Source: Microbacterium sp. LWS13-1.2 (GTDB taxonomy: Bacteria; Actinomycetota; Actinomycetes; Actinomycetales; Microbacteriaceae). From it: DNA of 64,000 nucleotides. Position 1 is the first letter of the stretch. Each line of letters opens with the position of its first letter. Both the position numbers and the translations under genes were made by a program. The stretch spans positions 3,410,001 through 3,474,000 of the forward strand of contig NZ_CP151632.1 of assembly GCF_040144835.1 (NCBI RefSeq), in the 5' to 3' direction. The notes beneath the pieces are model-generated. The model was not told the DNA's origin. It made no database searches and was given only the letters and a program-made list of their open reading frames with translations. Positions 12,917 to 57,032 of this stretch are shown piece after piece.

Positions 12917-12970
12917 GTGAACCTCCGATCTTCGAGTCGAGGATGATCTCGGGTCGATTCTACGGGATAT

Positions 12971-13013
12971 CTTCCGGCGATACATATGCGTAGCAGGAAG
13001 ACTTCCTGTCGTT
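12971..13013. promoter_or_regulatory. Candidate Lrp/AsnC operator
   Basis: A perfect 15-bp dyad CAGGAAGACTTCCTG lies at 12994-13008 between the divergent DUF6421-like and Lrp genes. CTTCCGGCGAT (12971) and CTTCCTGTCGT (13002) are near-direct repeats spaced 31 bp, about three helical turns, which suits binding of an Lrp-type multimer on one DNA face. The site sits upstream of both predicted -10 boxes. Confidence 0.5.
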
Positions 13014-13040
13014 GCAGGCGGCCGCTGGTAGCCTGGGGGC

Positions 13041-13511: not shown

Positions 13512-13533
13512 GTCCGCGGGTAGCCTCAGGAGC

Positions 13534-14508
13534 ATGCCGTCCTCATCCGAGCCGCCCGCGTTCGCCGACGGCCGGGGAGTCTTCATCGTGCGCAACGCCG
13601 CCTCCGGCACCGCCGTGGTGCGGGCGGACCCCGCGGGGACTCTCGCTGCGCGACTGCCCGAGGCCACGATCCACGAGCTCGGCGACGGGGAGGACCTCGC
13701 CGAGGTGGTCGCCGGTGCGATGCGGTCGGAGGAACCCCCCGCCATCCTGGGCGTCTACGGCGGGGACGGTTCGGTGTCGCGGATGGCGGCGCTCGCCCGG
13801 GAGCACGGGCGTCCGCTCCTGGTGATGCCGGGTGGCACCTTCAACCACTTCGCCCGCTCGGCGGGCCTCGACGACGTGGACACGGCCATCGACGCGCTCC
13901 AGAGCGGCACCACCATCGAGGTGAGCGCGATCGAGGCCCAGGCGGACGACGGCGAGCCGATCCTCGCGCTCAATGCGGTGTCGGTGGGCACCTACCCCGA
14001 GCTGATCGACGAGCGCGATCGCCGGCGGCAGTCGCTCGGCAAGTGGCTGGGCGGGATGGTCGCCGCCTGGCGGACGCTCAGGACGGCGGAGTCGCTGACG
14101 ATCGTGCGCGACGGCCGGCGGGCGCGCGTGTGGTCCGTGTTCGTCGGCATCGGGCGCAATGATCCCCAGCGCGTCGCGACGATGCAGCGAGAGACGCTCG
14201 TTGAACCGACACTCGACGTCCGCATCCACCACGCGCGCGGCTCACGGCTGCGCGCGATGGCGTCCCTCGCGTTCGGGCGGCGCACCGCCGCCGTGCTGCG
14301 GGCGGTGCGGCTCATGCCGCCTCGCTCCGACGTCGAGCGTCTGCTCGTCGCGGAGTTCGCGATGACGGTGCGCCTCGAAGAGGGGCATCCGTCGGTCTTC
14401 GTCCACGACGGCGAGCTCGAAGAGCAGGCGCCTACCGGCTTCACGCTGCGCTGCGTCGCCGTCCCCCGCGCGGTGACGGTCTTCGTGCCGCCGCTGCCCG
14501 GTCGTTGA
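13534..14508 (+). CDS. Diacylglycerol kinase catalytic-domain protein
   Basis: A 324-residue lipid-kinase-like protein. The nucleotide-binding signature GVYGGDGSV (GGDGS at 76-80) and MPGGTFNHFARSAGL match the DAGK/sphingosine-kinase catalytic domain, and the C-terminal beta-domain continues to about residue 310. The lipid substrate is unknown. The ATG has both AGGAG and a TAGCCT box (13521-13526) seven bases upstream. The last codons Pro-Gly-Arg-stop run into an intergenic repeat, whose GGTCGTTGA supplies the stop. Same strand as the Lrp gene, 22 bp downstream. Confidence 0.85.
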   Translation: MPSSSEPPAFADGRGVFIVRNAASGTAVVRADPAGTLAARLPEATIHELGDGEDLAEVVAGAMRSEEPPAILGVYGGDGSVSRMAALAREHGRPLLVMPGGTFNHFARSAGLDDVDTAIDALQSGTTIEVSAIEAQADDGEPILALNAVSVGTYPELIDERDRRRQSLGKWLGGMVAAWRTLRTAESLTIVRDGRRARVWSVFVGIGRNDPQRVATMQRETLVEPTLDVRIHHARGSRLRAMASLAFGRRTAAVLRAVRLMPPRSDVERLLVAEFAMTVRLEEGHPSVFVHDGELEEQAPTGFTLRCVAVPRAVTVFVPPLPGR

Positions 14509-14637
14509 GCGAGCGAAGCGAGACGAAACGCGCTGGACCGACGACGCACCTCAGCCCAGGGCGTTTCGTCTCGCTCGTTCCTCGCTCGCTCAACGACCGG
14601 ATATCGTTCACTGAGCGAAGGAAGAGCGACGAAACGC
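14499..14637. repeat. REP-like repeat cluster, three copies
   Basis: Copy 1 (14499-14531, plus), copy 2 (14561-14600, minus) and a degenerate copy 3 (14601-14637, plus) of the GGTCGTTGAGCGAGCGAAGC family. Copies 1 and 2 are inverted and can form a long hairpin between the convergent diacylglycerol-kinase-like and mmsA genes, so the cluster may act as a two-way terminator. Copy 1 supplies the stop codon of the kinase gene. Confidence 0.88.
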
Positions 14638-14638
14638 G

Positions 14639-16171
14639 TCAGTCGTGCTGCGGGAAGCCCAGGTTGATCCCGCCGTGCGACGGGTCGAGCCAGCGTGAGG
14701 TGACGGCCTTCTCGGCGGTGAAGAACTCGAACGCGTGAGGGCCGTACGCCTTCGTGTCTCCGAAGTGCGACGCCTTCCAGCCTCCGAAGGAGTGGTACGC
14801 GACGGGCACCGGGATCGGCACGTTGATGCCGATCATGCCCACGGTCGCCTCATGCTGGAAGCGCCGCGCCGCGCCGCCGTCGTTGGTGAAGATGGCGGTG
14901 CCGTTGCCGTACGGGCTGGCGTTGATGATGTCGAGGCCGTCTTCGTAGCCCTCGACCCGCACGACCGAGAGCACCGGGCCGAACACCTCGTCGGCGTACA
15001 CCGACGAGGTCGTCGGCACGTTGTCGATGAGCGTCGGGCCGAGCCAGAAGCCGTTCGGGTCGCCGTCGATGTCGACGTCGCGACCGTCGACGACCACCGA
15101 CGCGCCGTCGGAGGACGCCACGTCGATGTACGAGGCGACCTTGTCACGGTGCTGCCCGGTGATGAGAGGGCCCATGTCGCACCCGCGCATGCCATCGCCG
15201 GTGCGGAGCGTCTTCATCCGCTGCGACACCTTGGCCACGAACTCATCGGCCACCGTGTCGACGGCCAGCACCACCGAGATCGCCATGCAGCGCTCGCCCG
15301 CCGAGCCGAAGCCCGCGTTCACAGCGGCGTCCGCGGCGAGGTCGAGGTCGGCATCCGGAAGCACCAGCATGTGGTTCTTGGCGCCGCCGAACGCCTGCAC
15401 GCGCTTGCCGTGCGCGGTCGCCGTCTCATAGACGTACTTGGCGATCGGCGTCGAGCCGACGAACGAGATCCCGCGCACGTCGGGGTGCTCGAGGAGCGCG
15501 TCGACGGCCTCCTTGTCGCCGTGCACGACGTTGAAGACGCCCTCCGGCAGGCCCGCCTCGGTCAGGAGCGCCGCCATCCAGTTGGCGGCGGTCGGGTCCT
15601 TCTCGCTGGGCTTGAGCACCACCGCGTTGCCGGCGGCGAGCGCGACGGAGAAGAACCACAGCGGCACCATCGCCGGGAAGTTGAAGGGGCTGATGATGCC
15701 GACGACGCCCAGCGGCTGGCGGAGCGTGTACACGTCGATGCCGGTCGAGACGTTCTCGGAGTAGGCGCCCTTGGTGAGGTGCCCCACGCCGCACGCGAAC
15801 TCGACGACCTCCATGCCGCGGGCGATCTCGCCCAGAGCGTCCGAGAGCACCTTGCCGTGCTCGGCGGTCAGGATCTCGGCGAGCTCCTGCTTGCGCTGGT
15901 TCAGCAGCTCGCGGAAGTTGAACAGCACCGCCTGGCGCTTCGCGATCGATGCGTCGCGCCAGAGCGCCCACGCCGCCGAGGCGGCGTCGACCGCTTCGCC
16001 CACATCGGCGCGGGATGCGAACCGCACCTGCTTCTGCACGATGCCGAGTGCCGGGTTGAACACCTGTCCGGTGCGATCGGATGCCCCCGCCCAGGGGGCG
16101 CCGTTCACCCAGTGATCCAGGACAGTCGTGTCGGCACCCACCGTCTCGGTGTGCTCCATCGTGTCCGTCAT
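14639..16171 (-). CDS. mmsA: CoA-acylating methylmalonate-semialdehyde dehydrogenase
   Basis: A 510-residue aldehyde dehydrogenase of the CoA-dependent MMSDH type. It converts malonate or methylmalonate semialdehyde to acetyl- or propionyl-CoA with NAD. Features are FNFPAMVPLWF, the cofactor segment FVGSTPIAKYVYE and the catalytic Cys295 in GSAGERCMAIS, whose GERCMA context is typical of MMSDH rather than betaine or aldehyde dehydrogenases. AAAGGAGG precedes the ATG. As last gene of the cluster it would oxidise the semialdehyde made by the upstream aminotransferase, completing beta-alanine (or 3-aminoisobutyrate) catabolism. Confidence 0.92.
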   Translation of the reverse strand: MTDTMEHTETVGADTTVLDHWVNGAPWAGASDRTGQVFNPALGIVQKQVRFASRADVGEAVDAASAAWALWRDASIAKRQAVLFNFRELLNQRKQELAEILTAEHGKVLSDALGEIARGMEVVEFACGVGHLTKGAYSENVSTGIDVYTLRQPLGVVGIISPFNFPAMVPLWFFSVALAAGNAVVLKPSEKDPTAANWMAALLTEAGLPEGVFNVVHGDKEAVDALLEHPDVRGISFVGSTPIAKYVYETATAHGKRVQAFGGAKNHMLVLPDADLDLAADAAVNAGFGSAGERCMAISVVLAVDTVADEFVAKVSQRMKTLRTGDGMRGCDMGPLITGQHRDKVASYIDVASSDGASVVVDGRDVDIDGDPNGFWLGPTLIDNVPTTSSVYADEVFGPVLSVVRVEGYEDGLDIINASPYGNGTAIFTNDGGAARRFQHEATVGMIGINVPIPVPVAYHSFGGWKASHFGDTKAYGPHAFEFFTAEKAVTSRWLDPSHGGINLGFPQHD

Positions 16172-30581: not shown

Positions 30582-31889
30582 TCATGCCGGTGGAGGGACG
30601 ATGCGGAACGGGCCGCGAGCGGCGTCCGCCACGAGTTCGAGATACTCCTCGCCGCCGTCGAGGTCGTCGGTCGAGTAGAGATCGGCGACCTCGCGCAGTG
30701 CCGCGACGAGGTGCTGCTGCGGAACCGCGTTGTCGTTCCTGCCGTGGACGCCCTGCCGCGTCGACATCACCGCCGCAAGCCGGGGGAGGTCCGCCGCACG
30801 CGCCTTCCACAGTGCGTGCAGCGATCGCGGCGTCGCATTGCGGCTGCCGTGGTGGCCCACCTTGTAGAGGTCGATCTTCGCCAGCCGGTCGCGGAGGTCC
30901 GCATCGTCGCCCAGCTGATCGAGGGTGTGCCGCCAGTTCTCGATCTGGGCGTCCCCCGAGAACAGCAGGGACACGCCGCCCACCTTCAGCAGCAGGATGA
31001 CGCTGGTGTTGTTCAGCGCGTCGTCGAGGTCGCGGACGAGCCGTGCGGCGGAGCGGGACCGCTGATTCGCCAGCCGGTCGATCAGCCAGCGCACCGGTCC
31101 CGGCCCATGGGTGATCGGCGAGCGTGCGTCGGCCTGGGCAGCGGAACCCACCACACGCAGCGACGCCCCCAGTGCGGTGAGCCAGTACTCCGGGTCCTCT
31201 TCGCGCTGCCGGGCGACCCGTGGGTCCTGGTCGACGGTGGGAGGGCCGAGCACCGTCGCTTCGAGCCCCGGGACGACGTCGGCGAGGCCCGAGTCCATGC
31301 CGGCGTGGAGGTAGCGGCCGCGGCCGTCGCGCGACAGCTCGTTCAGGAGTGCGACCGCTTCGGCGTTCTTGAGCTGGTCCTCGGCGGCTGCCCTGACCTC
31401 GTCGTCGAGACCCACCAGGGTGGCGAGCCCCGCGACCTGCTCCTGCGCCTCCGCGAGCAGAGCGGCGTACCTCGCCGACGCGCGGCTCACCCCTGCGGTT
31501 TCGTCCGGTGCGGCGGCAGGGCCGTTCGCGGTCTCCGAGAGTTCGGGATCCTCGGTCCATGACCGCACCACGAGCTTGGGGGCGAGTCGCTTCATGATCG
31601 CCGCGCCGGCGTCGACCTCGAATCCGCGCAGATGGTCGCGGTGCCGGTGGGTCACCACGAGAACGTCGAGCTCGCCACCGGTGTGCTCCTCGATGAGCGC
31701 CGCGACATCGCCCATGCGGCCGCGCGCCATGCCCTCCCTCGGCGAATGACTCGTGCCGAAGTCGATCAGGATGTGCCGCGTGTCGCGCCCGTCCGGCAGT
31801 GGCGCGTCGTATTCGACGGACACCAGGAAGCAGTCGCCGAAGCCGACCTGGTACATGCGCACGCGGACGCGGATCGGAGTGCTCACCAT
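30582..31889 (-). CDS. MBL-fold metallohydrolase (ComEC/Rec2-like)
   Basis: A 435-residue cytosolic metallo-beta-lactamase-fold hydrolase. It shows VVTHRHRDHLRGF (HxHxDH), a later LLFSGDAQIENW (Asp ligand) and VGHHGSRNATP, the pattern of the ComEC C-terminal nuclease-like domain but without membrane parts. A long insertion (about 110-260) separates the ligands. The ATG at 31889 overlaps the preceding peptidase gene by seven bases; a GTG at 31886 gives a four-base overlap. Coupled to that gene, so the two proteins likely work together. Confidence 0.85.
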   Translation of the reverse strand: MVSTPIRVRVRMYQVGFGDCFLVSVEYDAPLPDGRDTRHILIDFGTSHSPREGMARGRMGDVAALIEEHTGGELDVLVVTHRHRDHLRGFEVDAGAAIMKRLAPKLVVRSWTEDPELSETANGPAAAPDETAGVSRASARYAALLAEAQEQVAGLATLVGLDDEVRAAAEDQLKNAEAVALLNELSRDGRGRYLHAGMDSGLADVVPGLEATVLGPPTVDQDPRVARQREEDPEYWLTALGASLRVVGSAAQADARSPITHGPGPVRWLIDRLANQRSRSAARLVRDLDDALNNTSVILLLKVGGVSLLFSGDAQIENWRHTLDQLGDDADLRDRLAKIDLYKVGHHGSRNATPRSLHALWKARAADLPRLAAVMSTRQGVHGRNDNAVPQQHLVAALREVADLYSTDDLDGGEEYLELVADAARGPFRIVPPPA

Positions 31890-33625
31890 GTCTCCCCGGA
31901 GTCCTGCTGCGTGCGGTGCAGCTCTGCGAACGTCTGCCCGCGGGCGAAGCCGTCCGAGAATCCGAGGCGCGCCGACGAGTCGCGACGCCCGGTCCGCTCG
32001 AGGTGGTCGAGCCGCTTCTGCTGCCGGCGCCAGTCGTCGAGGCGCTTGTGGATGTGCAGCTTGAGCCTGCCGAACTGGTCGAAGATCAGGGTGCCGCCGC
32101 CGAACAGCTGGATGGGGGTGCGCGGGTCGATCGCCGGAGACAATTGGAGCCCCGACTCGTCGGTGAACTCGCGTGCGGTCATATCGGCCATCTGCACGTA
32201 CGTGGCGACCGACTCCGGCACGATCAGGCCGTCGGGGCCGATCCGCTGCGTCGGCAGGACGGACTCGATCACCGTGTAGTAGTCGGTCGACACGTCGAGC
32301 CGACGCGCGTTCTGCCACAGGAATCGGAACACCTCGTCGCGGTCGCTGCGCAGTCCGGCGAAGTTGATCCCGAGATAGTGCGGGGCGAGCTCGGCCTCGA
32401 GCACGTCGGTGACCCGGTCGGACGACCGCTGGATGCCGGCCTTGGCGAACCCGGCCATCAGCAGCTGGCGGTAGCCGAGGTCGTCGTCCGGCACGAGCTC
32501 GTTGTCGGCCAGCAGCACGGCGTTGAGCAGATCGCCGAAGTCGAATTCGACGGGCGGCAGGTAGTCCAGACCGCGGATGAGCATATGGAGCAGCTGGGAT
32601 GCCGCCTTGGCGCCCTCCTCGGCGGCACGTGCGCGGTCGACCGTGATACCGCGGCCGCCGGCGGTCTCGCCGTTCGGGCGGGAGAAGAGCGCCTGGAGCC
32701 GCCGGTACCAGATCTCGATCAGCAGATCGAAGGCGATCGCGACCAGGACCTCGCCCCGCCGGTGCGGCTCGACGAACTCGGGCCGCTTCGCCCAGTCCGC
32801 CGGGGGCGGGTTCAACGCCGATTCGCGCAGCGCCCCACGGCCCTGGGTCAGCACGCTGCCGATCTGCTCTGCGACGCGGGCGAGCATGCTCTTGCGGAGC
32901 GCGTCGGGCTGGATGCGGCCGCGCGGGATGCGGCCGCTCCTGTCGGGCTTGCCGAGAGCCTGCTCGATGACGGGACGCATCGAGAACACTGAGAGGAGCG
33001 CGACGATGTCGGCGAACCCTTCGTGGAAGGCCGCCTGATCGGGCAGGCTCGGCTCGAGGAACCGGCGGCGGAGCCCGTCCAGCACGGCGTGCGTGGTCTC
33101 ATGCACCACCACGTCGTGACTCAGGCACGTGAAGACCGCCTCGCCACGGGGGTCGGCGGGCGGTACATAGCCGAACAGCAGCGCCCGGTCCTCGAACGAG
33201 TAGTACGCGTTCGCCTCGGCGAACGCGTGCGGCACGAGGTAGAGCTGGTGGCTGCCGAAGCCCCACGGCAGTCGCCGGCCGAGCGCCGTCTCGAACGTGG
33301 AGAGCGTCCGAGCCGCGGTGGCGTAGACGTGCTGGGCGTGGAAGGCCAGATCTGTGCGCAGGACCTCGTCGTCGGCATCCGCGAACAGGTCGTCTTTGCC
33401 CAGCGGCGCGTGCTTGACGTAGCGGCCGGTCGCCGTGTCGTAGTCCACGACGTGCAGGCGGGCTCCCCGCGGGCCGTCCTCCATGCGCGACCACGGCACC
33501 TTCACCCGTGCCGTCAGGATCCTGCCGTCGTCGCCGCTGACCGCAGGGTCCTGTGCGATGAGCCGCAGCGTCACGTGCGTGCGCGGCTCGTCGGCATGCT
33601 CGGCGTACTCGACACCATCGGTCAT
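31883..33625 (-). CDS. Gluzincin-type zinc metallopeptidase, unassigned family
   Basis: A 580-residue protein with a zinc-peptidase core: HETTH (His175, Glu176, His179) in VVVHETTHAVLDGLRRRF, and HEGFADIVALLS, whose Glu202 lies 23 residues on, the spacing expected of a gluzincin third ligand. No signal peptide, so it probably acts in the cytoplasm. Residues 1-165 and 290-580 show no family I recognise; the C-terminus is charged and Gln/Arg-rich. Start at the ATG at 33625 with GGGGGTG upstream. Overlaps the MBL hydrolase gene. It could be an effector peptidase, but that is inference. Confidence 0.75.
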   Translation of the reverse strand: MTDGVEYAEHADEPRTHVTLRLIAQDPAVSGDDGRILTARVKVPWSRMEDGPRGARLHVVDYDTATGRYVKHAPLGKDDLFADADDEVLRTDLAFHAQHVYATAARTLSTFETALGRRLPWGFGSHQLYLVPHAFAEANAYYSFEDRALLFGYVPPADPRGEAVFTCLSHDVVVHETTHAVLDGLRRRFLEPSLPDQAAFHEGFADIVALLSVFSMRPVIEQALGKPDRSGRIPRGRIQPDALRKSMLARVAEQIGSVLTQGRGALRESALNPPPADWAKRPEFVEPHRRGEVLVAIAFDLLIEIWYRRLQALFSRPNGETAGGRGITVDRARAAEEGAKAASQLLHMLIRGLDYLPPVEFDFGDLLNAVLLADNELVPDDDLGYRQLLMAGFAKAGIQRSSDRVTDVLEAELAPHYLGINFAGLRSDRDEVFRFLWQNARRLDVSTDYYTVIESVLPTQRIGPDGLIVPESVATYVQMADMTAREFTDESGLQLSPAIDPRTPIQLFGGGTLIFDQFGRLKLHIHKRLDDWRRQQKRLDHLERTGRRDSSARLGFSDGFARGQTFAELHRTQQDSGETW

Positions 33626-43909: not shown

Positions 43910-45477
43910 GCACGCCGGCGCCGCGCGTCCGGCCGATGGGGGAGCGCGCGTTCCTCCTCGAGGTCGGCGCGCTCGACGACGTGCTGCCCCTGCACGCCGC
44001 GCTCGCCGCCGCGCGGCCGGAGGGCGTCGTCGACCTGGTGCCGGCGGCTCGGACCGTGCTGGTGCGGGTCGACCCGCGGCTCCTTCCGCTCGCGTCCGCT
44101 CGGGCGTGGGCGCTCGCCGCGGCGGCCGACACCGAGCCCGGTGGCGGCTCCGCCGGGCCGCTCGTCGAGCTCGACATCGCCTACGACGGGGCCGATCTCG
44201 ACAGCACCGCGCTCCTGCTCGGCATCGGTGCCGATGACCTCGTGCGCCGTCATTCCGCGGCGGAGTGGCGCGTGGCCTTCACCGGCTTCGCGCCGGGCTT
44301 CGGCTACCTCGTCAGCGACGACTGGCCGTTCGATGTGCCGCGCCTCGACTCGCCCCGCACCCGGGTGCCCGCGGGGGCGGTGGGACTCGCCGGTGGATTC
44401 GCAGGCGCCTACCCGCGCGACACTCCCGGCGGCTGGCGGCTCATCGGCACCACCACCGCGCCGCTGTTCGATCCGGATGCCGCATCCCCCGCGCTTCTGG
44501 CGCCGGGGACCCGCGTTCGGTTCCGGCCGGCGGCGCGCGCCGGTGGCGGCGGCGCGTCGCCCGGAGTCTCCGGGCGCGTGAGCCCGGCCGCGGCGGAGGC
44601 GCCTGGCCCCGGCATCCGGATCCTCGAACCCGGCCTGCTGGCGACCCTGCAGGATCTCGGACGGGAGGGCGCGGCATCCGTCGGCGTGGCCGTGTCGGGA
44701 GCCCTCGACCGGGCCGCCCTGCGCACCGCCAACCGACTGCTCGGCAACCCCGAGGACGCCGCGGCCATCGAGGTCACGATGGGCGGGCTGCGCGCCGTCG
44801 CGGAGACTGACCTGTGGGTCGCGGTGACCGGTGCGTGGGGTGCTGTGCGCATCGCGGGGCTGGCGGCCGACCCCTATGCGGCGCATCCGTGGCCGGCGGG
44901 CGCCGAGCTGCACCTGGACTGGTTCTCACACGGGGCGCGCGCCTACGTCGCGGTACGGGGCGGCCTCGACGGTCGCACCGCCCTCGGCTCGCGTGCGACC
45001 GATCTGCTCGCCGGGCTCGGACCTGCAGCGCTCCGCGCCGGTGCCGTCGTGGGCGTCCGCGACGACGCCCGCACGCCGATCCCGGTCGCGCCGCCCGCGG
45101 CGTGGGGCGCACCGCACGATGACGAGCTCGAGCTCGAACTGGCACCGGGACCGCGCGCCGAGTGGTTCGCTCCGGAGGCGCTGACGACGCTCTACGACGC
45201 CGTGTGGACCGTCTCGAACCACGCCGATCGCGTCGGCGCACGCCTCGATGGGCCCGAGCTCGCCCGCGTGCGCACGGGGGAGCTGCCGAGCGAGGGCATG
45301 GTCCCGGGCGCGCTGCAGGTGCCGCCCAGCGGCCGGCCCACCATCCTCCTCGCCGACGGGCCCGTGACCGGCGGCTACCCGGTGATCGCCGTGGTGACGG
45401 CCGCCGGCCTCGACCTCGTCGCGCAGGCGCGGCCGGGCACCCGCATCCGGTTCCGGCACGCGCGCCCGCCCGTGTGA
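43903..45477 (+). CDS. Fused 5-oxoprolinase subunits PxpB-PxpC
   Basis: A 524-residue fusion. Residues about 1-210 are the PxpB/KipI (CT_C_D) domain: FTGFAPGFGYLVSDDWPFDVPRLDSPRTRVPAGAVGLAGG. A Gly/Ala/Pro linker (about 210-235) leads to the PxpC/KipA (CT_A_B, biotin-dependent-carboxylase-like) domain, about 240-524: LEPGLLATLQDLGREG, FSHGARAYVAVRGGL, SNHADRVGARLDG. GGAGG lies ten bases before the GTG at 43903; a second GTG at 43906 is possible. Both overlap the pxpA stop, so translation is coupled. Confidence 0.9.
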   Translation: MVSTPAPRVRPMGERAFLLEVGALDDVLPLHAALAAARPEGVVDLVPAARTVLVRVDPRLLPLASARAWALAAAADTEPGGGSAGPLVELDIAYDGADLDSTALLLGIGADDLVRRHSAAEWRVAFTGFAPGFGYLVSDDWPFDVPRLDSPRTRVPAGAVGLAGGFAGAYPRDTPGGWRLIGTTTAPLFDPDAASPALLAPGTRVRFRPAARAGGGGASPGVSGRVSPAAAEAPGPGIRILEPGLLATLQDLGREGAASVGVAVSGALDRAALRTANRLLGNPEDAAAIEVTMGGLRAVAETDLWVAVTGAWGAVRIAGLAADPYAAHPWPAGAELHLDWFSHGARAYVAVRGGLDGRTALGSRATDLLAGLGPAALRAGAVVGVRDDARTPIPVAPPAAWGAPHDDELELELAPGPRAEWFAPEALTTLYDAVWTVSNHADRVGARLDGPELARVRTGELPSEGMVPGALQVPPSGRPTILLADGPVTGGYPVIAVVTAAGLDLVAQARPGTRIRFRHARPPV

Positions 45478-45496
45478 GGGGACCACCGAAGCCGGC

Positions 45497-47698
45497 TCAC
45501 CTGCCTCCGGCCTCGAGCAGGTCGGCGGTTGCGCGGAGGATGGCCACGATCGCGGCGGTGCGCATCTCGGCGGGCGCGCGGTGGCCGTCCGTCTCGATCG
45601 CGACGGATGCCGCAGCAGGAGGCGCGTCGTGTACCGAGGACAGCAGCCCCCGCGCGTTCAGGGCTCCTGCCGCCGAGAGCATCGGTCGCTGCTCGTAGGT
45701 GTCATCGAGGATGTCGAACACCGCCGCGACGAACTCGCTGTTGGTCAGCGCCGGCGTCTTGGCGAACACGCTCAGCGCGGCCGACGAGAACACGCCGCGC
45801 CCGTTCGTCTCGAGCGCGACCTGGTCGGGCTGGCAGGCGCTGATCAGCACCTCCCGGCCGTCGGCCCGCTGCGCGCGGGGCACCGCGGCACGGTCGGTCT
45901 CGACCTCGACGACCCGCTTCCACGCGGCCATGCGGAACGCATCGGCAGGCGACGCCGCCCGCTCCTCGCGGAACGCCGCCTCCTCATCGGCGTCGAGCAC
46001 CGTCATCCGCGGAGTCGCACCTGCGGGGATCTTCCGCGACGTGAACTCGCTCGGCGTGATCTCGCGGTTCACCGAGCCGGAGTGGCACGAGTCGAAGAAG
46101 AGCGTCACCGAGACGCCTTCGGGGATGGCATCCCAGATGGCGCCGAGGTCGTCGTCGACGATGAGCTCGCCGTCGCGGAAGTCGATCGGGCAGAGAGCCT
46201 CGTCCTTCGGCCCGAACGCGTCGGTCTCGTCGCCGTCGAGGTCGGGGACGAATGTTCCGTGCCCGGCGAACTGGATCGCGACGATGTCGCCGTCGCGCGC
46301 CGACGAGACCTTGTCGAGCATCGCCCGCAGGATCGTGTCGCGGGTGGCGTCCTTGTTGTGGATCGACTCCACCTTGAAGCCGGCGCCGGTGAGCGCAGCG
46401 GCCCATGCCTCGGCGTCCGCCACGCAGCCGCTCAGCGGGTCCCTCGGGTACGCGTCGATGCCGATGCACAGCGCCAGCTTGCGCGGCGCGGCACCGCGGG
46501 CGCCGGTCGGCTCCGGGCGCGGCGCAGGCGTGAACTCGCTGACCTCGCGCGTCCGGCGCGGGAAGACGGCAACGTGGTCGGTCTCGTCGCTGTCCGGCAC
46601 GCCGACGACGCGCCGCGCGAGACTCATCATCGTCTCCTCGTCGTTGTCGAAGTCGCCGTGCGAGGTCGCCTGCGTGCTGCTGCGCCGGCCGCGGGCGACC
46701 GGACCGAGGACGAGGCGCTCGGAGGTGTCGCCGAGGTAGGCCATCGTCCGCCCGGAGCGACGCAGGTGCTCCTCGAGACCGAGGATCTCGGCATCCTTCT
46801 CCGCCTCGAATGCCCGCGAGACGAGATACAGGAGCGATTTGCGGTAGACCCCGGCCGTGTTGTCGCGCTTCTCCTGGTTCTCGTTCATCGTGAAGATCGA
46901 CAGGTTCTCGATCTTGCCGGTCTCGGCGAGGGGCAGCAGCGTCGCCTCGAAGGTGTCGACGCGCACGGCGGGCGCGAGGAAGGTCACGCTCTTCACGCTC
47001 TCGACCTTGTCGTCGCCCTCGAACAGCCGCGGCACGAAGTGCGAGTGGTAGATCGACCCGGCGCTGTGCCCGGCGATGTGCAGCTCGATGGCGCCCGCGT
47101 TCGCAGCCATGTACTCCCGGAGCGCCGCCGCGAGCACGTACGCACCGCCTGCCGCACCGCCGTCGATGGCCGGAAGACATGCGCCGGCGGAGTCGAGCTT
47201 CATGTCGTCCCAGAACTTCCGGCCGCCGAGCACTCGTGCCGCGGCTTCCACGGCGAGATCCGTGAGGTCGGTGAAACCGCGCTTGCCGGCCTTGCCCCGG
47301 ACCACGTCTTCGAGAGTGGTCTTGAACCCGCTCTCCCAGACGAGGTGGATGGGGTACACGCCGTTCTTCTTCCACCACGCGACCTGGCGCTGTGCGGTCT
47401 GCAGCCCCGCGGCCTTGTCGGTGAGCCCCCCGTGCGCCCAGATGAGCACCGGAACGGGCGCGGGCGCCTCGCCGGCCGGCGTCTTCTTCGCCTGCTGGTC
47501 GACGAACGCGCCGAGGTCGACGTCGATCATGCGCTTGACGTCCTCGGCCGTGGTCTCGAAGTCCTCGACGGTGCGCGGCTTGGCGCTCGCCGCCGTGGCG
47601 AGCCTGCCGTCCTCCGTGTGGACGACGTGCTTGCGCAGTGCCGTGAGCTCCGCGGCGCTGAGCGTCGCGCCACGGGCGGTCGCGGTGGTGTCGGGCAT
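45497..47698 (-). CDS. Alpha/beta-hydrolase fused to a caspase-family protease
   Basis: A 733-residue cytoplasmic protein with two enzymes. Residues about 80-340 are an alpha/beta-hydrolase: VLIWAHGG (oxyanion region), GHSAGS with nucleophile Ser212, and a charged end. After a basic, Ser/Thr-rich linker (about 335-400, RGRRSST and FPRRTRE) comes a caspase (peptidase C14) domain (about 405-610): KLALCIGIDAY, His480 in IQFAGHGTF and Cys538 in LFFDSCHSGS. Caspase-like enzymes in bacteria act in cell suicide and immunity. The gene is last in a unit with a CHAT protease and STAND ATPase. A plausible model is caspase activation controlling the hydrolase; this is inference. Weak Shine-Dalgarno. Confidence 0.85.
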   Translation of the reverse strand: MPDTTATARGATLSAAELTALRKHVVHTEDGRLATAASAKPRTVEDFETTAEDVKRMIDVDLGAFVDQQAKKTPAGEAPAPVPVLIWAHGGLTDKAAGLQTAQRQVAWWKKNGVYPIHLVWESGFKTTLEDVVRGKAGKRGFTDLTDLAVEAAARVLGGRKFWDDMKLDSAGACLPAIDGGAAGGAYVLAAALREYMAANAGAIELHIAGHSAGSIYHSHFVPRLFEGDDKVESVKSVTFLAPAVRVDTFEATLLPLAETGKIENLSIFTMNENQEKRDNTAGVYRKSLLYLVSRAFEAEKDAEILGLEEHLRRSGRTMAYLGDTSERLVLGPVARGRRSSTQATSHGDFDNDEETMMSLARRVVGVPDSDETDHVAVFPRRTREVSEFTPAPRPEPTGARGAAPRKLALCIGIDAYPRDPLSGCVADAEAWAAALTGAGFKVESIHNKDATRDTILRAMLDKVSSARDGDIVAIQFAGHGTFVPDLDGDETDAFGPKDEALCPIDFRDGELIVDDDLGAIWDAIPEGVSVTLFFDSCHSGSVNREITPSEFTSRKIPAGATPRMTVLDADEEAAFREERAASPADAFRMAAWKRVVEVETDRAAVPRAQRADGREVLISACQPDQVALETNGRGVFSSAALSVFAKTPALTNSEFVAAVFDILDDTYEQRPMLSAAGALNARGLLSSVHDAPPAAASVAIETDGHRAPAEMRTAAIVAILRATADLLEAGGR

Positions 47699-47736
47699 GG
47701 TGTCACGTCCTGTCTGCTGAGGGTGGATGGGTGAAG

Positions 47737-49959
47737 TCAGTGGTGGTCGTCACCGGCGTGGCCGCTGCGCACGAGCTTCGCGCGAGGGTCGGCGTAGACC
47801 GTGAAGGCGAGGGAGGTGAGATCGCCGGCCTCGCGCGCGGCGTGTCGTGCGGCGAGCACCGCCTCGCCGACGGTCGCGCCCTCGCCGAGCGTCTGCGCGT
47901 AGAAGGTGCGGACGAACAGCGCGGTCACGTCATCGCGCACCGCCCACGAGCACCCGATGAACACGCCTGCTCCGCCGCGGAGGAACGCCTCCGCGAACCC
48001 GCCGAGCCCGGTCGCGCCGGAGCGGAGCCGGCCCACGTCGCACGCGCTCAGGAACACGAACGGGGCGGATGCCGCGGCCTGCGGCTCGTCCAGTTCGGGC
48101 AGATCGCGTCGTGCGTCGGAGTCCGTGTACGAGGCCGATCCGTCGTCGTGATCCTCCGAGAACGCGGCGAAGGCGATCTCCTGCCCGCGTGGAGCGGCGT
48201 CGCGCCACCGGCCGTGCCCGGCGAAGTGGAGGAGGTCGAAGCCGTCCGCGATCGCCTGGCGGAAAGCGGCCGGGTCGTCGGCGGAGCGCGGACGGAGCGC
48301 CAGTAGGTCGCCGAGGGTCTCGATCTCCTCGCGGGCGCGCGGGAGGGTCAGGTTGTGATCGACGTAGTCCGGCGCGACCGCGACGACACGGCTGGTGTCG
48401 ACGGGCAGGACCGTGGGTCGCGTCGTCCCGTACATCCACCGCGTCAGCCCGAGGTCGCCGAGGAAGTAGCGCTCCGGGTCGGGTCGCTGCGTGCCGACAG
48501 GCACGAGGTGCAGGATCTCCCAGGGGATGTCGAGTTCGCCTGACGTCTGCAGCACGAGTTGCGAGATCCGCCGCCGCCGGCTCCACAGCAGGGCGTTGAC
48601 CTCATCGCCGAGGAGATCCTCCGCGATCCGGGCGCCGAGTGTGCGCACCTCGCGGCGGACGGTGTCGGCGGCCTCCTCGGCCTCGTCGGGGTCGTCCTCC
48701 ACCGTCTGCCGATACGCCGATCTGATTTCGGCGAGGTCGGCGTAGATGCCCTCGACGTACGCGCTCTTGTCGGCGAGGCGCACCGAGTTCTTCACGACCG
48801 TCCGGCCGATCTTCGCCGTGATGAGCAGCTCGGAGCGGCCGCGCGAGATCGACTCGTCGATCACGAGGGTGGGGAGGTCCGCGATGCTGCGCGGCGGCGC
48901 GGCGACGGATGCCGCCACCACCCGCACGTCGCCGTCGGGGCCGTCGGCGTCGTCGGGGAGGATGGGGGTGCTCAGCGCCAGGACGGCGAGCGGAGCCACC
49001 ACGGGCGCCTGGGTGAACGTGACGGTGATGTGGCCGCGCCCGGGTGCGTCGGGCACCAGCCGGAAGACGAGTCGCCGGGGGTCGTCCCCCTCCGCGGGCA
49101 GCGAGGTCGTGATGACCGACGGGGTGCCGTCGGCGAAGGCGAGGCCGCGCAGCTGCATGCCCACTTCGATGTCACGCGACGGGTCGAACCGTGCCCGGGT
49201 CTTCTTGTGCGCCGTGCCTGCCGTCGGGACGAGGTCCTCCAGCGACAGTCTGACGACGGCATCGAACGCGACGCCGGCGATGACGCGCGAGGGAACCTCC
49301 GCGTCGACGACGGTCGGGACCGGCGTCGCACCGTCCAGGCCGGCGGCCGGCGCCCCCGGCGCCGGCACCGGTGAAGCCGCTGCGGGCGGCGGCGCGGACG
49401 GGGCGGGAGCGGGCGGTGTCGGTGCGGCGGGTGCGAGCCCGGGGGATCGGCCGCCGATCCCACCGCCGATCCCGCCTCCACCCAGTGGCCCCATCTCGAA
49501 TGCACCACCGGTCTCGAACTCCGGCACCGCGGGCGGAGGCACAGCCTCCGCGGCCGACTCGGGCCCGCCGCCCATGCCCATGCCGCCGACGGCGACCTGC
49601 TCCTCGAGCCAGGCGATGCCCGTCTCGAAGTCGCTCGCGACCACGGTCAGATGCAGCGTCTCACCGATGATCAGGTGGATCCGCGCCCCGTAGAGGTGGT
49701 CGCCCCGCCGCTCGAGGTGGATGAGCTCCGCGATCCCGTCGCGCACGGTGAGCGCGGCGTAGTGGACGTCGTCGCCGCCTCGGACGAGCACGGTCGCGAC
49801 GGTGTCCGCGCGCGCGTGGAGCATGACATCGGCGAGCAGCGTGATGCCGTGCTCATCGGGCACGACGTCCGGCGGCGCCGCGTCGATGCGCACGTCGAGG
49901 GAGTCTCCGTCGCCGTCGACGTCGACTGTGCCGCGCGGCACGTCTGGAACCAGAGCCAT
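47737..49959 (-). CDS. CHAT-domain protease
   Basis: A 740-residue protein. Residues 1-120 are a beta-rich domain; 124-215 are a low-complexity Gly then Pro/Ala linker; 225-400 a second beta-rich region. The C-terminal part (about 480-735) is a CHAT domain with catalytic His582 in LLHFAGHGRW and Cys640 in FVFLSACDVG. CHAT proteases are clan CD, related to caspases and separase. The start at 49959 (ATG, GAGGGGG upstream) avoids a false upstream extension across the STAND gene. TATGCT (50026-50021) may be a -10 for its own promoter. Sits 38 bp upstream of the caspase fusion gene. Confidence 0.88.
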   Translation of the reverse strand: MALVPDVPRGTVDVDGDGDSLDVRIDAAPPDVVPDEHGITLLADVMLHARADTVATVLVRGGDDVHYAALTVRDGIAELIHLERRGDHLYGARIHLIIGETLHLTVVASDFETGIAWLEEQVAVGGMGMGGGPESAAEAVPPPAVPEFETGGAFEMGPLGGGGIGGGIGGRSPGLAPAAPTPPAPAPSAPPPAAASPVPAPGAPAAGLDGATPVPTVVDAEVPSRVIAGVAFDAVVRLSLEDLVPTAGTAHKKTRARFDPSRDIEVGMQLRGLAFADGTPSVITTSLPAEGDDPRRLVFRLVPDAPGRGHITVTFTQAPVVAPLAVLALSTPILPDDADGPDGDVRVVAASVAAPPRSIADLPTLVIDESISRGRSELLITAKIGRTVVKNSVRLADKSAYVEGIYADLAEIRSAYRQTVEDDPDEAEEAADTVRREVRTLGARIAEDLLGDEVNALLWSRRRRISQLVLQTSGELDIPWEILHLVPVGTQRPDPERYFLGDLGLTRWMYGTTRPTVLPVDTSRVVAVAPDYVDHNLTLPRAREEIETLGDLLALRPRSADDPAAFRQAIADGFDLLHFAGHGRWRDAAPRGQEIAFAAFSEDHDDGSASYTDSDARRDLPELDEPQAAASAPFVFLSACDVGRLRSGATGLGGFAEAFLRGGAGVFIGCSWAVRDDVTALFVRTFYAQTLGEGATVGEAVLAARHAAREAGDLTSLAFTVYADPRAKLVRSGHAGDDHH

Positions 49960-50084
49960 CTCGACCCCCTCGCAGCGGTGCCCAGTCACCTTTGGATCCG
50001 AGGAGCGCAGTTCGGTGGACAGCATACGAGCACGCTTCTCACCGCACCAGAGCACCGCGTGCGCAGTGCTGATACGTCCTTCCC

Positions 50085-52718
50085 CTACCAGGTGCGCAGG
50101 GTGTCGGCGACGGTCTCCCACTCGTGTTCGGGAAGAGCGAGCTGCACGGCCTCGGCGACCGTGAGCTCGGCACCGGCGGCCTGCCCGGCTTCCACGCTCT
50201 GGGGGTCGTGACCGCGCAGGATCTCGAGATACGGCGTGTGCACCGTGAACGCCTCGACGTCGAAGATGCCGATCCGCTGCCGGATCTCGCCGGCCGCGAC
50301 CGCCAGAGCCGCCGCCCGCCACGCCTCGCTGTGCGCGGCGGCGACGGCGCAGACGCCCTCGAGCCCGTAAGCGACGCCCTCCTCGTAGTGCAGCCGGATC
50401 GACAGCAGCAGGGTGTGCACGAACTCCCGCTCGGCATACTCGGTGCGTCCCAGCTGGAAGTTCAGACGAGCTCGCAGATTGCCGGCGACCGACGTCGTGA
50501 ACAGGTCGCCGCGTGCCTCGGCGAGCGACGTGGCGCGATCGAAGTGCGCGAGGGCGTCGTCGGTGGCGCCCCTGACCCACGCGAGCCTGCCGAGCGACAC
50601 CTCCGTGATGGCCTCCGCCCAGGTGTTCCCGCGCTCGCTCAGCGTCACGACCGCCTCGCGCAGTTCGGCATCGGCCTTGTCGGTGTCGAGGTGGGAGAAC
50701 TGCACGCGCGCGGTCGCGCGCGCGGCGAGGGCCATGGCCGCGGCATCCTCGTCGCCGCTCTCCGTGAACAGCCGTACGCACTCGCCGAGCCCGGCGATCA
50801 CCTGCTCGCTGGGCCGCTGCCACATCTCGCCCCAGAGGGCGAAGAACCACGCGATCGCGCGCGTGTGCTGGGTGATGGGCTGGTCGTGCTGCTTCTCGAG
50901 CAGTTCGAGCATCCACACCCGCACCTCGGCGAAGAAGCCCGAGATCCACCAGTAGATGAGCAGGCTCCACGCGAAGTCGCCGGCGTCGTCCAGCCGGTTC
51001 GTGTAGATGAGGTGGCGCACCGCGGCGCGCAGGTTCGGAAGCTCGAGCCCCAGACGCACGACCGCGTCGGCCTGCCCGCTGCCGCCGAGACCGGGCGCGA
51101 TCCGCTGCACCAGGCCCCGGTAGTAGTCGGCGTGCGCGCGGCGCACCCGCACCGCGTCGCCGCGCTCCTTCAGGCGCCCCAGCGCGTATTCGCGCACGAG
51201 AGACAGCAGCGAGAACACGCGCCGTCCGCCGACCTCGCTCTGCTTCACGAGCGAGCCGTCGATGAGTGCGGTGAGCGCGTCGATCGCCTCGTCGCCCCAC
51301 GAGCGTCCCTCGCCCAGCGCCTCGACAGCGTCGAGTGTGAACCGGGTCGCGAAGACGCCGAGATCTTCGAGCAGCTCGCGCTGCGTGTCGGGGAGCAGGC
51401 TCACGCTCCAGTCGATCGTCGCCCGCATGGTCTTGTGCCGGTCGGGCATATCCCGCACCGCCGCCGTCAGCAGCGGCAGGCTGCTCTCGAGACGCTCCGC
51501 GATGCCGGAAGGGCTCAGGATGCGCACCTTGGCGGCGGCGAGCTCGATCGCCAGCGGCAGCCCTTCCAGCCGGCGGCAGATGTCGGCGAGGTCGCCCGCG
51601 TTGTCTGCGGTGACGTCGAAGTCGGCGTCGATCGCCCGCGCCCGGTCCACGAACAGCGTCACGGCGGCGGACCGCGTGGCGCGATCCAGGCTCGCCGGAC
51701 CTTCGCCGGCCGGGGTCGTCAACGGAGCGACCTCGAAGACGCGCTCGCCGCGGATGCGCAGCACGATGCGGCTCGTCACCAGGAACGTCGCCGTCGGAGC
51801 GACCGTGTACAGCCGCACCAGGACGGGGGCGGCATCCACGATCTGCTCGAAGTTGTCGAGCACGATGAGCACGCGGCGATCGGCGAGCGCGTGGGCGATG
51901 CGCTCCTCGAGCGCCGCTTCGCCGTTGTCGCGGATGCCGAGATAGTAGGCGATCGTCGGCAGCAGCAGTCCCGGCTCGAGCACGCCCTCGAGGAGCACGA
52001 AGTACACGCCGTCGGGGAACATGTCGCCGCACGCCAGCGCGGTCTCGATCGCCAGCCGGCTCTTGCCGATGCCACCGGGGCCGATCAGGCTCACCACGCG
52101 GTCGGTGCCGCGGGCGAGGAGTGTGCGCACGGCGTCGATGTCGGCCTCGCGGCCGATCGTCGGGGTGTAGGGGACGGGGACGCGTCCGATGAGGGTGGGA
52201 GCCTCGGGCTCCGGCTCGGCTGTAGCGGCGACTCGCGATTCGTCGAAGCGTTCGGCGAGGAGCATGGCGAGGTCGCCGGCGACGTGGTCTTCGAGGTCGG
52301 CGGCGGTGTGGAAGTGGAGGTAGGCGGCGGTGTCGTCGGCTTGGATGCGGGCGATGAGCTGGGTGAGGCGTTCGTCGCGGGTGTCGGTGTCTTTGACGTA
52401 GATGAGTTTGGGCATCTCGGGGGAGGCCAGGTTGTATTCGTCTTCGAGTCCGGAGACCGCTTCTTCGGGGGCGACCCAGCCGTAGCTGGCGCCGTAGATG
52501 CCGATGAACACGTCGCTCTGAGCGAGGTAGGAGCGGTAGAGGTCGCGGGGAGGGTGGGGGCGGGCGCCCAGCTCGAACATCACTGGCGCGAGCCGCAGAC
52601 GCTCGATGGCCGACCTCACTGCTTCACGTTCGTCGGCGAGCTCGCGCAGGGTCGAGCTCACGAACACCCGGATCCGCTGGTCGGGCGTGCGGATCACGGG
52701 GGATCGTCCCCCAGTCAT
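50085..52718 (-). CDS. DUF4062 NB-ARC (STAND) ATPase with TPR-like tail
   Basis: An 877-residue signalling ATPase. DUF4062 occupies about 16-155 (RVFVSSTLRELADEREAV, FIGIYGASYGW, MPKLIYVKD). The NB-ARC domain (about 185-440) has Walker A GPGGIGKS (213-220), Walker B VLIVLDN (283-289) and LVTSR (313-317). A winged-helix region (to about 530) and alpha-helical TPR-like repeats follow to the end. STAND ATPases oligomerise on ligand binding to activate effectors, as in Apaf-1, NLRs and bacterial Avs proteins. Probable sensor of the CHAT/caspase unit. The DUF4062 segment uses more GAA/AAA codons than the rest. ATG at 52718 chosen; a GTG at 52754 is possible. Confidence 0.88.
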   Translation of the reverse strand: MTGGRSPVIRTPDQRIRVFVSSTLRELADEREAVRSAIERLRLAPVMFELGARPHPPRDLYRSYLAQSDVFIGIYGASYGWVAPEEAVSGLEDEYNLASPEMPKLIYVKDTDTRDERLTQLIARIQADDTAAYLHFHTAADLEDHVAGDLAMLLAERFDESRVAATAEPEPEAPTLIGRVPVPYTPTIGREADIDAVRTLLARGTDRVVSLIGPGGIGKSRLAIETALACGDMFPDGVYFVLLEGVLEPGLLLPTIAYYLGIRDNGEAALEERIAHALADRRVLIVLDNFEQIVDAAPVLVRLYTVAPTATFLVTSRIVLRIRGERVFEVAPLTTPAGEGPASLDRATRSAAVTLFVDRARAIDADFDVTADNAGDLADICRRLEGLPLAIELAAAKVRILSPSGIAERLESSLPLLTAAVRDMPDRHKTMRATIDWSVSLLPDTQRELLEDLGVFATRFTLDAVEALGEGRSWGDEAIDALTALIDGSLVKQSEVGGRRVFSLLSLVREYALGRLKERGDAVRVRRAHADYYRGLVQRIAPGLGGSGQADAVVRLGLELPNLRAAVRHLIYTNRLDDAGDFAWSLLIYWWISGFFAEVRVWMLELLEKQHDQPITQHTRAIAWFFALWGEMWQRPSEQVIAGLGECVRLFTESGDEDAAAMALAARATARVQFSHLDTDKADAELREAVVTLSERGNTWAEAITEVSLGRLAWVRGATDDALAHFDRATSLAEARGDLFTTSVAGNLRARLNFQLGRTEYAEREFVHTLLLSIRLHYEEGVAYGLEGVCAVAAAHSEAWRAAALAVAAGEIRQRIGIFDVEAFTVHTPYLEILRGHDPQSVEAGQAAGAELTVAEAVQLALPEHEWETVADTLRTW

Positions 52719-52911
52719 GACCACATCATGGACCTGTCCGGCCGATTCCGCCACGGTTTCAGTGCATCGGTGTATCGGAAGCGGTCGATCCTCCCCGTCG
52801 AGTCCTTCCGCTCGGCTTCCGTCAGGAGTATGGTGCGGCGGTGACGGCGCCGAAGGGGTCGCCGTTCGTCCGATCCGGGGCTTCGGACGTCACCATGGGG
52901 AGGGGAATGCG

Positions 52912-53238
52912 ATGAAGAAGGTTTTGGCGTGCGCGGCGGTGGCGATCGGACTGGTGCTCGGCAGCGGCGGAGCCGCGATGGCAGGAGAGGCGACCGGCAA
53001 CGGCGGTGAGGCGCAAGGCGCCAACAACTCCGCGTCGGAGTGCGCGTTCTCGGGGCAGGACACCATCGACAGTGTCGAGGGCAACCCCGAAGGCTTCGAC
53101 GACGACATGCTCGCGATGCGGGGCAACCAGAAGAACGGCTACAAGGGCATCCAGAGCTACGGCATGTTCGTGAGCGCCGGCATCGACGTCGGCGTGAACC
53201 CGGGCATGGCCTGCCGAGGAAACCTCGGCAAGAAGTAG
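52912..53238 (+). CDS. Small secreted protein, function unknown
   Basis: A 108-residue exported protein. The signal peptide MKKVLACAAVAIGLVLGSGG ends near AAMA-GE (about 24/25). The mature part is about 84 residues, Gly/Asn/Asp-rich with two Cys (SECAFS, GMACRGNLGKK) likely to form a disulfide. No family recognised. GAGGGG precedes the ATG. Divergent from the STAND gene and followed by a hairpin terminator, so monocistronic. Confidence 0.8.
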   Translation: MKKVLACAAVAIGLVLGSGGAAMAGEATGNGGEAQGANNSASECAFSGQDTIDSVEGNPEGFDDDMLAMRGNQKNGYKGIQSYGMFVSAGIDVGVNPGMACRGNLGKK

Positions 53239-53254
53239 GCAGCAGCAGGTCGCG

Positions 53255-53289
53255 CCCGCGTGCTCCGGCCCTTGGGCCGGGTGCGCGGG
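53255..53289 (+). terminator. Terminator after the small secreted protein gene
   Basis: Inner stem CCGGCCC/GGGCCGG (53265-53271 with 53274-53280, two-base loop) is extended by CCCGCG/CGCGGG (53255-53260 with 53284-53289) across small internal loops. It separates the secreted-protein gene from the rpoB promoter. No T-tract. Confidence 0.65.
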
Positions 53290-53342
53290 TGCGTGCTGCG
53301 TGGGGTTATACCGCAGCATCCAAAAGTCGTCAAGGATCCGAC

Positions 53343-53371
53343 TGGACACGGCGCGTCGTTCGACGTATAGT
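53343..53371 (+). promoter_or_regulatory. rpoBC promoter (SigA type)
   Basis: TGGACA (53343-53348), exactly 17 bases, TATAGT (53366-53371): five of six matches to TTGACA and TATAAT each. It gives a leader of about 150 bases before the rpoB start. The leader contains CCCCCCCGCG and CGCGCGGG segments that can pair, so it may be structured. Confidence 0.8.
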
Positions 53372-53531
53372 GGGTCTTTGCGCTCTTGGATTCCCCCTGC
53401 CCTCATATGGTGGTCGGCTGTGCCTGCGCCCCCCCGCGTTCACGCGAGGAGTGCCGCGCGGGTTTCGGGGAAGAGAGCACTCCACCTGACGACAAGGAAA
53501 CGAGCCCTACGGGCCCACGGAGGTAATCCCC

Positions 53532-57032
<3,501 letters not shown>

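Follow-up and report, generated by a model that had tools for sequence, protein, structure and literature searches.

We analysed a window of 64,000 nt from Microbacterium sp. LWS13-1.2 (NZ_CP151632.1, 3,410,001-3,474,000; all coordinates are window-based) in which three consecutive minus-strand genes encode a STAND protein, a CHAT protease and a protein that joins an alpha/beta-hydrolase to a metacaspase. Their order, shared strand and gaps (125 bp between STAND and CHAT, 38 bp between CHAT and hydrolase-caspase) were confirmed from the open reading frames (ORFs). A sequence-only reading of the locus had taken the three genes as one system. The real unit is the hydrolase-caspase with one adjacent protease, a portable two-gene module. 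The locus contains the following features:

45497..47698, minus strand: hydrolase-caspase protein, 733 amino acids (aa) (Pfam Peptidase_C14, alignment, motifs)
46484..46603, minus strand: linker between hydrolase and caspase, residues about 366-405, putative place of the activating cleavage (from pLDDT and alignment variability)
47737..49959, minus strand: DUF7363-CHAT protease, 740 aa (Pfam, alignment, structure model, Foldseek)
50021..50049, minus strand: promoter-like block in the STAND-CHAT gap, TGGTGC, 17 nt, TATGCT; candidate promoter (from conservation)
50085..52718, minus strand: STAND protein DUF4062-NB-ARC-TPR, 877 aa from ATG (Pfam), a neighbour and not an obligate part of the pair

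The flanking genes were named from their ORF sequences: one side would hold rpoB/rpoC, the other pxp-like and oligopeptide-transport-like genes. A search for RNA families at 45000-54000 found none.

The CHAT protease and the hydrolase-caspase as a pair

The hydrolase-caspase matched Peptidase_C14 in Pfam (E 2.7e-25), and its metacaspase-like half (about residues 404-691) has both the His/Cys dyad and the caspase fold of the C14 metacaspases, as seen from Pfam, alignment and structure search. The dyad His480/Cys538, proposed earlier from the sequence, was invariant in 26 of 26 aligned proteins. The other half (about residues 15-365) was assigned to the hydrolases on its GHSAG elbow, the invariant S212, E276/D279 and H347, and predicted alternating strands and helices; either E276 or D279 would supply the acid of the triad. 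This half matched no Pfam family, and a profile search with it returned nothing significant. The structure search with the whole model was filled by matches to the caspase half, with no hydrolase row, and is uninformative on the hydrolase fold. The linker between the halves is variable in the alignment, with pLDDT under 50 at residues 385-402.

The CHAT protein matched CHAT (E 2.5e-22) and DUF7363 (2.2e-15) in Pfam. It consists of an N-terminal strand-rich domain, a disordered Pro/Gly-rich linker (about 126-208), DUF7363, a helical part and the CHAT domain with H582/C640. The earlier assignment of this dyad was borne out by its invariance in 23 of 23 aligned proteins; across the loci described below (matches > 200 bits, 26 rows), His was kept in 26/26 and Cys in 25/26. 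Foldseek searches with the structure model (mean pLDDT 77.3) returned separase (5fc2, E 6.5e-10), the Craspase TPR-CHAT (7zoq, 2.6e-9) and SAVED-CHAT (8tl0, 4.4e-6). The window protein thus resembles Craspase TPR-CHAT (Csx29) and separase in its CHAT/separase-type fold and His/Cys dyad, whereas TPR is replaced by DUF7363 and an N-terminus rich in strands; we know of no gRAMP partner for it. SAVED was absent from its Pfam matches, and the PADLOC SAVED_CHAT match (E 0.0021) spans the CHAT part only. Reportedly, Steens in 2024 described a SAVED-CHAT to caspase cascade in type III-B CRISPR, which is alike in placing CHAT upstream of a bacterial caspase; here no SAVED was found and the caspase is fused to a hydrolase.

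The distribution of the genes was determined in 129 Microbacterium genomes and in wider samples of the family (n=299), order (n=396) and phylum (n=396), the own genome included. CHAT and hydrolase-caspase occurred in the same 9 of the 129 genomes and were adjacent in all nine. The pair was patchy more widely (6/299 family, 9/396 order and 2/396 phylum genomes) and was found at other sites in other genera. The hydrolase-caspase relatives span 11 phyla. From at least 542 of them we took the best 80 as a locus set, which is no prevalence sample and comes partly from the same genomes as the genus sample. Seven further loci gave an 87-locus set with 83 different hydrolase-caspase sequences; those of L157-L160 are identical to ones in the 80-locus set. 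Seven loci that enter the counts (L156-L160 and, in part, L178-L181) have flanks of no more than about 1.5 kb. S212, E276 and H347 were kept at 87/87 loci, S212 and H347 partly by construction in the 80-locus set because the scan motifs included them, and the caspase dyad at 85/87.

A single CHAT + hydrolase-caspase reading frame was present in 4 of the 80 loci (L088, L089, L090 and L104; 1470-1927 aa, Pfam-confirmed), and the proteins P0130 and P0142 are fusions as well. Distances among CHAT proteins and among hydrolase-caspases were correlated (r 0.906, n=26, with L118 and L160 excluded from 28 rows; 0 of 2000 permutations as high), a correlation that shared descent alone suffices to give. 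Co-occurrence, adjacency, fusion and correlated distances all uphold the earlier proposal that these two genes belong together. The outcomes that would have spoken against the sequence-only reading were not seen: the two genes are adjacent in other genomes, and their distribution is patchy, unlike that of housekeeping genes.

Hydrolase and CHAT are also joined with different hydrolases: at L118 (Hymenobacter) the downstream neighbour of the hydrolase-caspase encodes an LCAT-like hydrolase-CHAT fusion of 1091 aa at 12142-15417 (+), and P0034 combines CHAT with a DUF7379 hydrolase-like part.

A metalloprotease in the place of CHAT

Partners within 3.5 kb of the hydrolase-caspase were called with profiles for CHAT (built without P0034), caspase and a newly clustered HExxH family; the hydrolase-caspase profile was built without P0130, P0142 and P0144. 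Among the 87 loci, 27 had CHAT, 50 HExxH and none both; two had a second caspase alone and eight had none of these. The corresponding numbers for the 80-locus set were 23, 47, 0, 2 and 8. The metalloprotease profile was made from 41 of 51 cluster members and these counts come from the same loci it was built from. The CHAT counted at L118 belongs to the other, hydrolase-CHAT protein, and at L115, counted as having none, a 127-aa upstream ORF clusters with CHAT. Four more loci from the order-wide sample gave CHAT twice, HExxH once and neither once (L181). At L178 CHAT matches flank the hydrolase-caspase on either side, and the match downstream leaves a gap in the profile. Eleven loci (10 Cryobacterium) carry an HExxH protein and a small second caspase.

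The HExxH family numbers 51 proteins (median 600 aa) from 46 loci, with H238, E239, H242, E265 and D269 invariant in 17/17 aligned members. From the spacing of these residues, we take its motif to be M4-like, of the thermolysin type. Two members scanned had no Pfam match, and comparison with solved structures gave thermolysin only at E 0.23 and worse. On a tree of the 87 hydrolase-caspases, all partner labels required 11 changes as opposed to 32.3 in shuffles, and the CHAT versus metalloprotease label required 3, or 2 without L118; several forks of this tree are poorly supported.

Two arrangements among these loci are recorded as side observations. At L095-L106 and L127 (ten Cryobacterium, one Arthrobacter) the hydrolase-caspase is divergent to the HExxH gene and a small stand-alone caspase adjoins it, often with a Band_7/flotillin-like gene nearby. 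The copy at L147 (Cryobacterium sp. Y11) appears degraded, with the caspase Cys/His gone and the HExxH gene fragmented.

The window itself holds a member of the metalloprotease family away from the pair, next to a further gene:

31883..33625, minus strand: metalloprotease-family relative, non-adjacent to the hydrolase-caspase (407 bits to the family profile; HETTH motif, downstream HEGFAD)
30582..31889, minus strand: MBL-fold-like gene with THRHRDH motif, overlapping the end of the metalloprotease gene (adjacency in 8/8 genomes; weak ComEC/MBL matches)

This metalloprotease lies 11.9 kb from the hydrolase-caspase. Its type was found in 8 of the 129 Microbacterium genomes, six with the pair and two (G028, G064) with STAND and no pair (Fisher p 4e-7, relatedness ignored). 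A search for it in 14 other pair-bearing genomes, run without a positive control, gave nothing at 1e-40. Strict mutual exclusion of CHAT and metalloprotease was considered and rejected: it holds only for adjacency within 3.5 kb. In 8/8 genomes the metalloprotease gene and a gene for about 435 aa overlap; the latter encodes an HxHxDH motif, is MBL-fold-like by eye and matches ComEC/MBL hydrolases weakly (E 0.08-0.13). In the window this gene is 13.6 kb from the pair. The metalloprotease and the MBL-like gene may form another protease/pro-enzyme pair within this region.

Proposed activation and function of the module

We lean towards reading the two genes as a module in which the DUF7363-CHAT protease is the initiator and the alpha/beta-hydrolase-metacaspase a pro-enzyme, its hydrolase being the executioner. 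CHAT (or the metalloprotease) would receive a signal, for CHAT via its N-terminal strand-rich/DUF7363 part, and would then cut its partner; for CHAT, the disordered linker is the probable site. Amplification of this cut by the metacaspase half is possible, and the freed hydrolase would damage a cell component and thereby stop or kill the cell. As in animal cell death, the hydrolase-caspase is probably switched on by protein cutting. What the data show is gene content, residues and folds, and the scheme itself is inferred. Such activation has a precedent: excerpts of PMC12799240 describe proteases that activate a pro-nuclease in Hachiman, AVAST and canu, and report that proteases activating a partner pro-enzyme were recurrently acquired by immune systems.

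One locus bears on which part acts as executioner. In L088 (Agromyces cavernae) a protein of 1927 aa contains about 520 N-terminal residues followed by hydrolase, caspase, DUF7363 and CHAT. The frame, open for 1938 codons, was given by a locus-trained gene caller; a window-trained caller did not call it. The caspase His is changed to Gln and the CHAT Cys to Phe, while S212, E276, D279 and H347 are retained. Because this protein has lost a catalytic residue in both proteases and kept the triad, the hydrolase would be the effector, and the two proteases would serve its activation and be dispensable under vWA/MoxR control, as judged from this one locus. Upstream lie an alpha/beta-hydrolase gene, a caspase-VMAP-C protein (PF20028 41.1 bits, cut-off 27), so that the VMAP-C domain of the ternary systems is present, and an AAA protein (AAA_5 22.8 bits, cut-off 22; bpMoxR 24.6 bits, below the cut-off of 27). 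The N-terminal 523 residues had no Pfam match; from gene order and motifs we take this part to be the vWA component.

The layout of L088 fits the VMAP-MoxR-vWA ternary systems (PMC7159879, PMC8195603; both in excerpts), in which effectors sit behind a vWA domain (PMC8195603) and caspases so placed are inactive in about 70% of cases (PMC7159879). There, the caspase is described as always accompanied by an alpha/beta-hydrolase gene. The systems differ from the present pair in that hydrolase and caspase are separate genes and the main text of PMC7159879 does not mention CHAT. By BLASTP, the hydrolase belonging to the L088 system itself has no meaningful similarity to the window hydrolase. No MoxR, vWA or VMAP was among the Pfam matches of the three window proteins, in a scan that covered these three and not the other 46 called genes.

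A role in immunity is plausible, and our best reading of the module would be a proteolytically gated hydrolase effector of conflict systems, with a putative mechanism, substrate and antiphage role. In favour of immunity are L056, where the pair is near McrBC, Mrr and integrase genes, and L088; against it, the sampled neighbourhoods were mostly ordinary. After exclusion of proteins <100 or >1200 aa, partner clusters and one CHAT protein (L118), PADLOC matches in the CHAT-type set included DEDDh, PDC-S48 and mad2 (3 each), with mad2 twice in the other set. Single matches were to RTasRmuC, IetA, TRIP13, PD-T4-6, Cas12 models, Csx1, TPR, IetS and LmuA. We judged most of these to be housekeeping cross-hits. 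Mobile elements also speak against immunity. Phage records contained no match. The 17 viral loci found (L161-L177) encode caspase-like proteins whose match begins at residue 389, so that they have the caspase half and no hydrolase half. Plasmid records were few, 5 in all, one covering most of the query.

Several observations weigh against the gated-hydrolase reading. Few PADLOC families occur near the loci: 9 among 65 neighbours of 13 CHAT-type loci and 12 among 83 neighbours of 31 other loci, with 1-3 proteins each. No conserved sensor gene accompanies the pair at the loci examined. Eight of the 80 loci have no partner in reach, and only three of these are near a contig edge. The metalloprotease is not a strict replacement for CHAT, because 6 of the 7 Microbacterium whose pair lies at the rpoB site have both, 6.5-13.2 kb apart, and because L128 and L139 have weak CHAT matches (45 and 21 bits) 5.7-7 kb away. 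To these are added the partly built-in conservation of S212 and H347 and the fact that L088 is a single case, its HGG motif reading QGG; used as queries against the 87 loci, the L088 proteins revealed no second such case.

Among the alternatives, the one that survives best, though we think it unlikely, is a non-immune module that serves autolysis, development or as an antibacterial effector, with envelope lipids or peptidoglycan as its target. An N-terminal extension is present in 29 of the 47 metalloprotease-type hydrolase-caspases, those of 907 aa or more, and in both long proteins tested, L113 (Polaromonas, Amidase_2) and L118 (CHAT class), both outside Actinomycetota, it is a peptidoglycan amidase. 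The amidase-metacaspase combination was already noted in 2012 (PMC3501461, excerpts), and the little defence signal around the loci would suit this explanation, as would a T4 gp19-like tail-tube gene near L107 (7063-7959, +), a Burkholderiales MAG locus in which a hydrolase-caspase of amidase length follows two genes downstream. It is opposed by the lack of an obvious signal peptide, by eye, in the proteins inspected, and by the pair's presence near McrBC, Mrr and integrase (L056) and in a VMAP-type conflict locus (L088).

Somewhat less probable still is that the metacaspase activates CHAT, or that both act side by side on other proteins, with the hydrolase as a lipid sensor or regulator. In keeping with this explanation, the dyads of both proteases are kept at almost all loci, and in canu a caspase activates the partner nuclease (PMC12799240). 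In L088, however, both proteases lack a catalytic residue and the hydrolase triad is kept; a stand-alone hydrolase relative, without caspase or partner, exists in the order-wide sample (L181); and the metacaspase is constant while the adjacent protease varies.

The STAND gene and relation to known systems

The STAND protein had been assigned DUF4062, NB-ARC and TPR domains. DUF4062 was recovered clearly (E 1.1e-20) and NB-ARC near the cut-off (5.5e-5; 23 bits, cut-off 23.5), and the TPR part found only a weak match (TPR_21 0.0038). Comparison with solved structures returned none at 1e-3. Among relatives, the Walker A GxxGxGKS glycines and Lys and the Walker B Asp were kept in 120/120, E92 in 116/120 and E94 in 118/120. 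In excerpts of a 2026 preprint (PMC13174449) DUF4062 is reported as a TIR-like NADase and antiphage effector, which makes it plausible that the STAND protein has a killing domain of its own. The STAND gene alone resembles the Swarozyc/DUF4062 NADases of that preprint in its N-terminal DUF4062 with conserved Glu residues (E92/E94), one of which may match KpSwz E97, and differs in having NB-ARC-TPR; the likeness concerns this neighbour and not the pair.

Close STAND relatives (E <= 1e-200) were present in 26 of the 129 Microbacterium genomes, always near rpoB, with 2-4 copies in 14 of the 26. At the 25 STAND sites beyond the window, rpoB was on the upstream side in all, with <=3 called genes between, and pxp on the other side in 24 (exception L073). 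As a side observation, the pxp-rpoB site (window 50085-52718, L049-L075) carries diverged DUF4062-NB-ARC-TPR genes in arrays of 1-4, which brings NLR gene clusters to mind, and the STAND-rpoB interval of the window contains a small predicted secreted protein of 108 aa (52912-53238, +) with 50-100% identity at several related sites.

That the STAND protein senses a threat, oligomerises and activates CHAT, which in turn cuts the hydrolase-caspase, so that the three genes are one system, was the proposal of the sequence-only reading; we consider it improbable. The three genes are adjacent and on the same strand at 8 loci of the 80-locus set and in 7 genomes of the genus sample (the sets overlap). 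Co-occurrence in Microbacterium favours a link: 8 genomes have both STAND and pair, so that STAND is found in 8 of the 9 with the pair, 1 has the pair only, 18 STAND only and 102 neither (Fisher p 8e-6, relatedness ignored). Against this, the pair is at the STAND/rpoB site in 7 of the 26 genomes (window counted) and missing from it in 19. The pair also occurs without STAND, both at other sites and, in L082 (Microbacterium sp. C7(2022)), at this pxp-rpoB site itself. In G112 the STANDs lie near rpoB and the pair is found at other positions (L066, L055), and G032 has the pair (L056) with no STAND match at the wider threshold of E <= 1e-60. At this same threshold, 17 further pair-bearing genomes gave no STAND in 10 (of which G565 and G824 may be one strain, because their hydrolase-caspases are identical), a full-length STAND in 5 and only the NB-ARC-TPR part in 2 (G818, G822).

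The STAND-CHAT gap and the reported NADase family of DUF4062 (PMC13174449) also argue for separation. In 10 aligned gaps with STAND, TGGTGC and TATGCT were each exact in 9, 17 nt apart; the block was absent from the one gap without STAND (L082). A consensus promoter scan did not call it. Judging by its conservation, it is a possible promoter of the pair's own. A STAND protein as required third component was not upheld, given the 19 STAND sites without the pair, the pair without STAND in several genera and the reported NADase family. An obligate STAND-CHAT-caspase unit was likewise rejected, since the three genes do not consistently co-occur (STAND in 26 genomes, the pair in 9). The STAND gene beside the pair is probably a separate receptor, a predicted TIR-like NADase, that shares the rpoB site and would be at most an optional sensor.

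Vertical housekeeping genes of the rpoB region with no conflict role, as the single site in part of Microbacterium might suggest, are a very improbable explanation in view of the patchy distribution, the other sites in other genera and fast divergence (L053: rpoB 98.4, STAND 87.9, hydrolase-caspase 58.7 and CHAT 44.2 % identity).

Of published systems, the nuclease-protease pairs including canu (PMC12799240) are alike in that a protease and a pro-enzyme form a portable module. They are alike, too, in that one enzyme family has proteases of more than one kind as partners, there trypsin-like ones or caspases. They differ in that the pro-enzyme here is an alpha/beta-hydrolase-metacaspase and not an MBL nuclease, and the partners are CHAT or a metalloprotease. 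No MBL-fold nuclease partner was among the three window proteins by Pfam. The window metalloprotease/MBL-like couple is closer to the published protease-MBL-nuclease pairs (PMC12799240), but with another protease family. The Amidase_2-metacaspases of PMC3501461 are matched by the Polaromonas relative L113, which carries Amidase_2 and caspase, whereas excerpts of that paper mention no hydrolase half of this kind or partner protease. Parts of the arrangement are therefore already known: caspase with alpha/beta-hydrolase (PMC7159879), Amidase_2 with metacaspase (PMC3501461) and protease/pro-enzyme pairs (PMC12799240). Searches of the open-licence literature, which most subscription papers fall outside, found no description of a hydrolase-metacaspase fusion partnered by CHAT or a metalloprotease.

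We tentatively propose, as a possibility short of even likelihood, an undescribed class of execution module in 11 phyla, in which a serine hydrolase-metacaspase would be inactive until cut by an adjacent CHAT or metalloprotease, working alone, beside NLR-like receptors or as a VMAP-MoxR-vWA effector. Because members of this metalloprotease family would pair with an MBL-fold enzyme as well, proteases and pro-enzymes may be mixed and matched. Correcting the exclusion rule left our estimate unchanged, because the swap was weakened as a strict rule but the metalloprotease/MBL couple adds a second case of pairing.

For annotation, the STAND gene beside the protease is no evidence of one system, and the tempting three-gene label is corrected on that ground. 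If the proposal is true, the principle of pro-enzyme/protease pairs, so far shown for nucleases (PMC12799240), would be extended to a hydrolase, and the pro-enzyme would contain a further protease of its own, in the manner of initiator-executioner caspase cascades. As the partner position is taken by either of two unrelated protease families, the prediction is that different proteases would cut the same kind of substrate.

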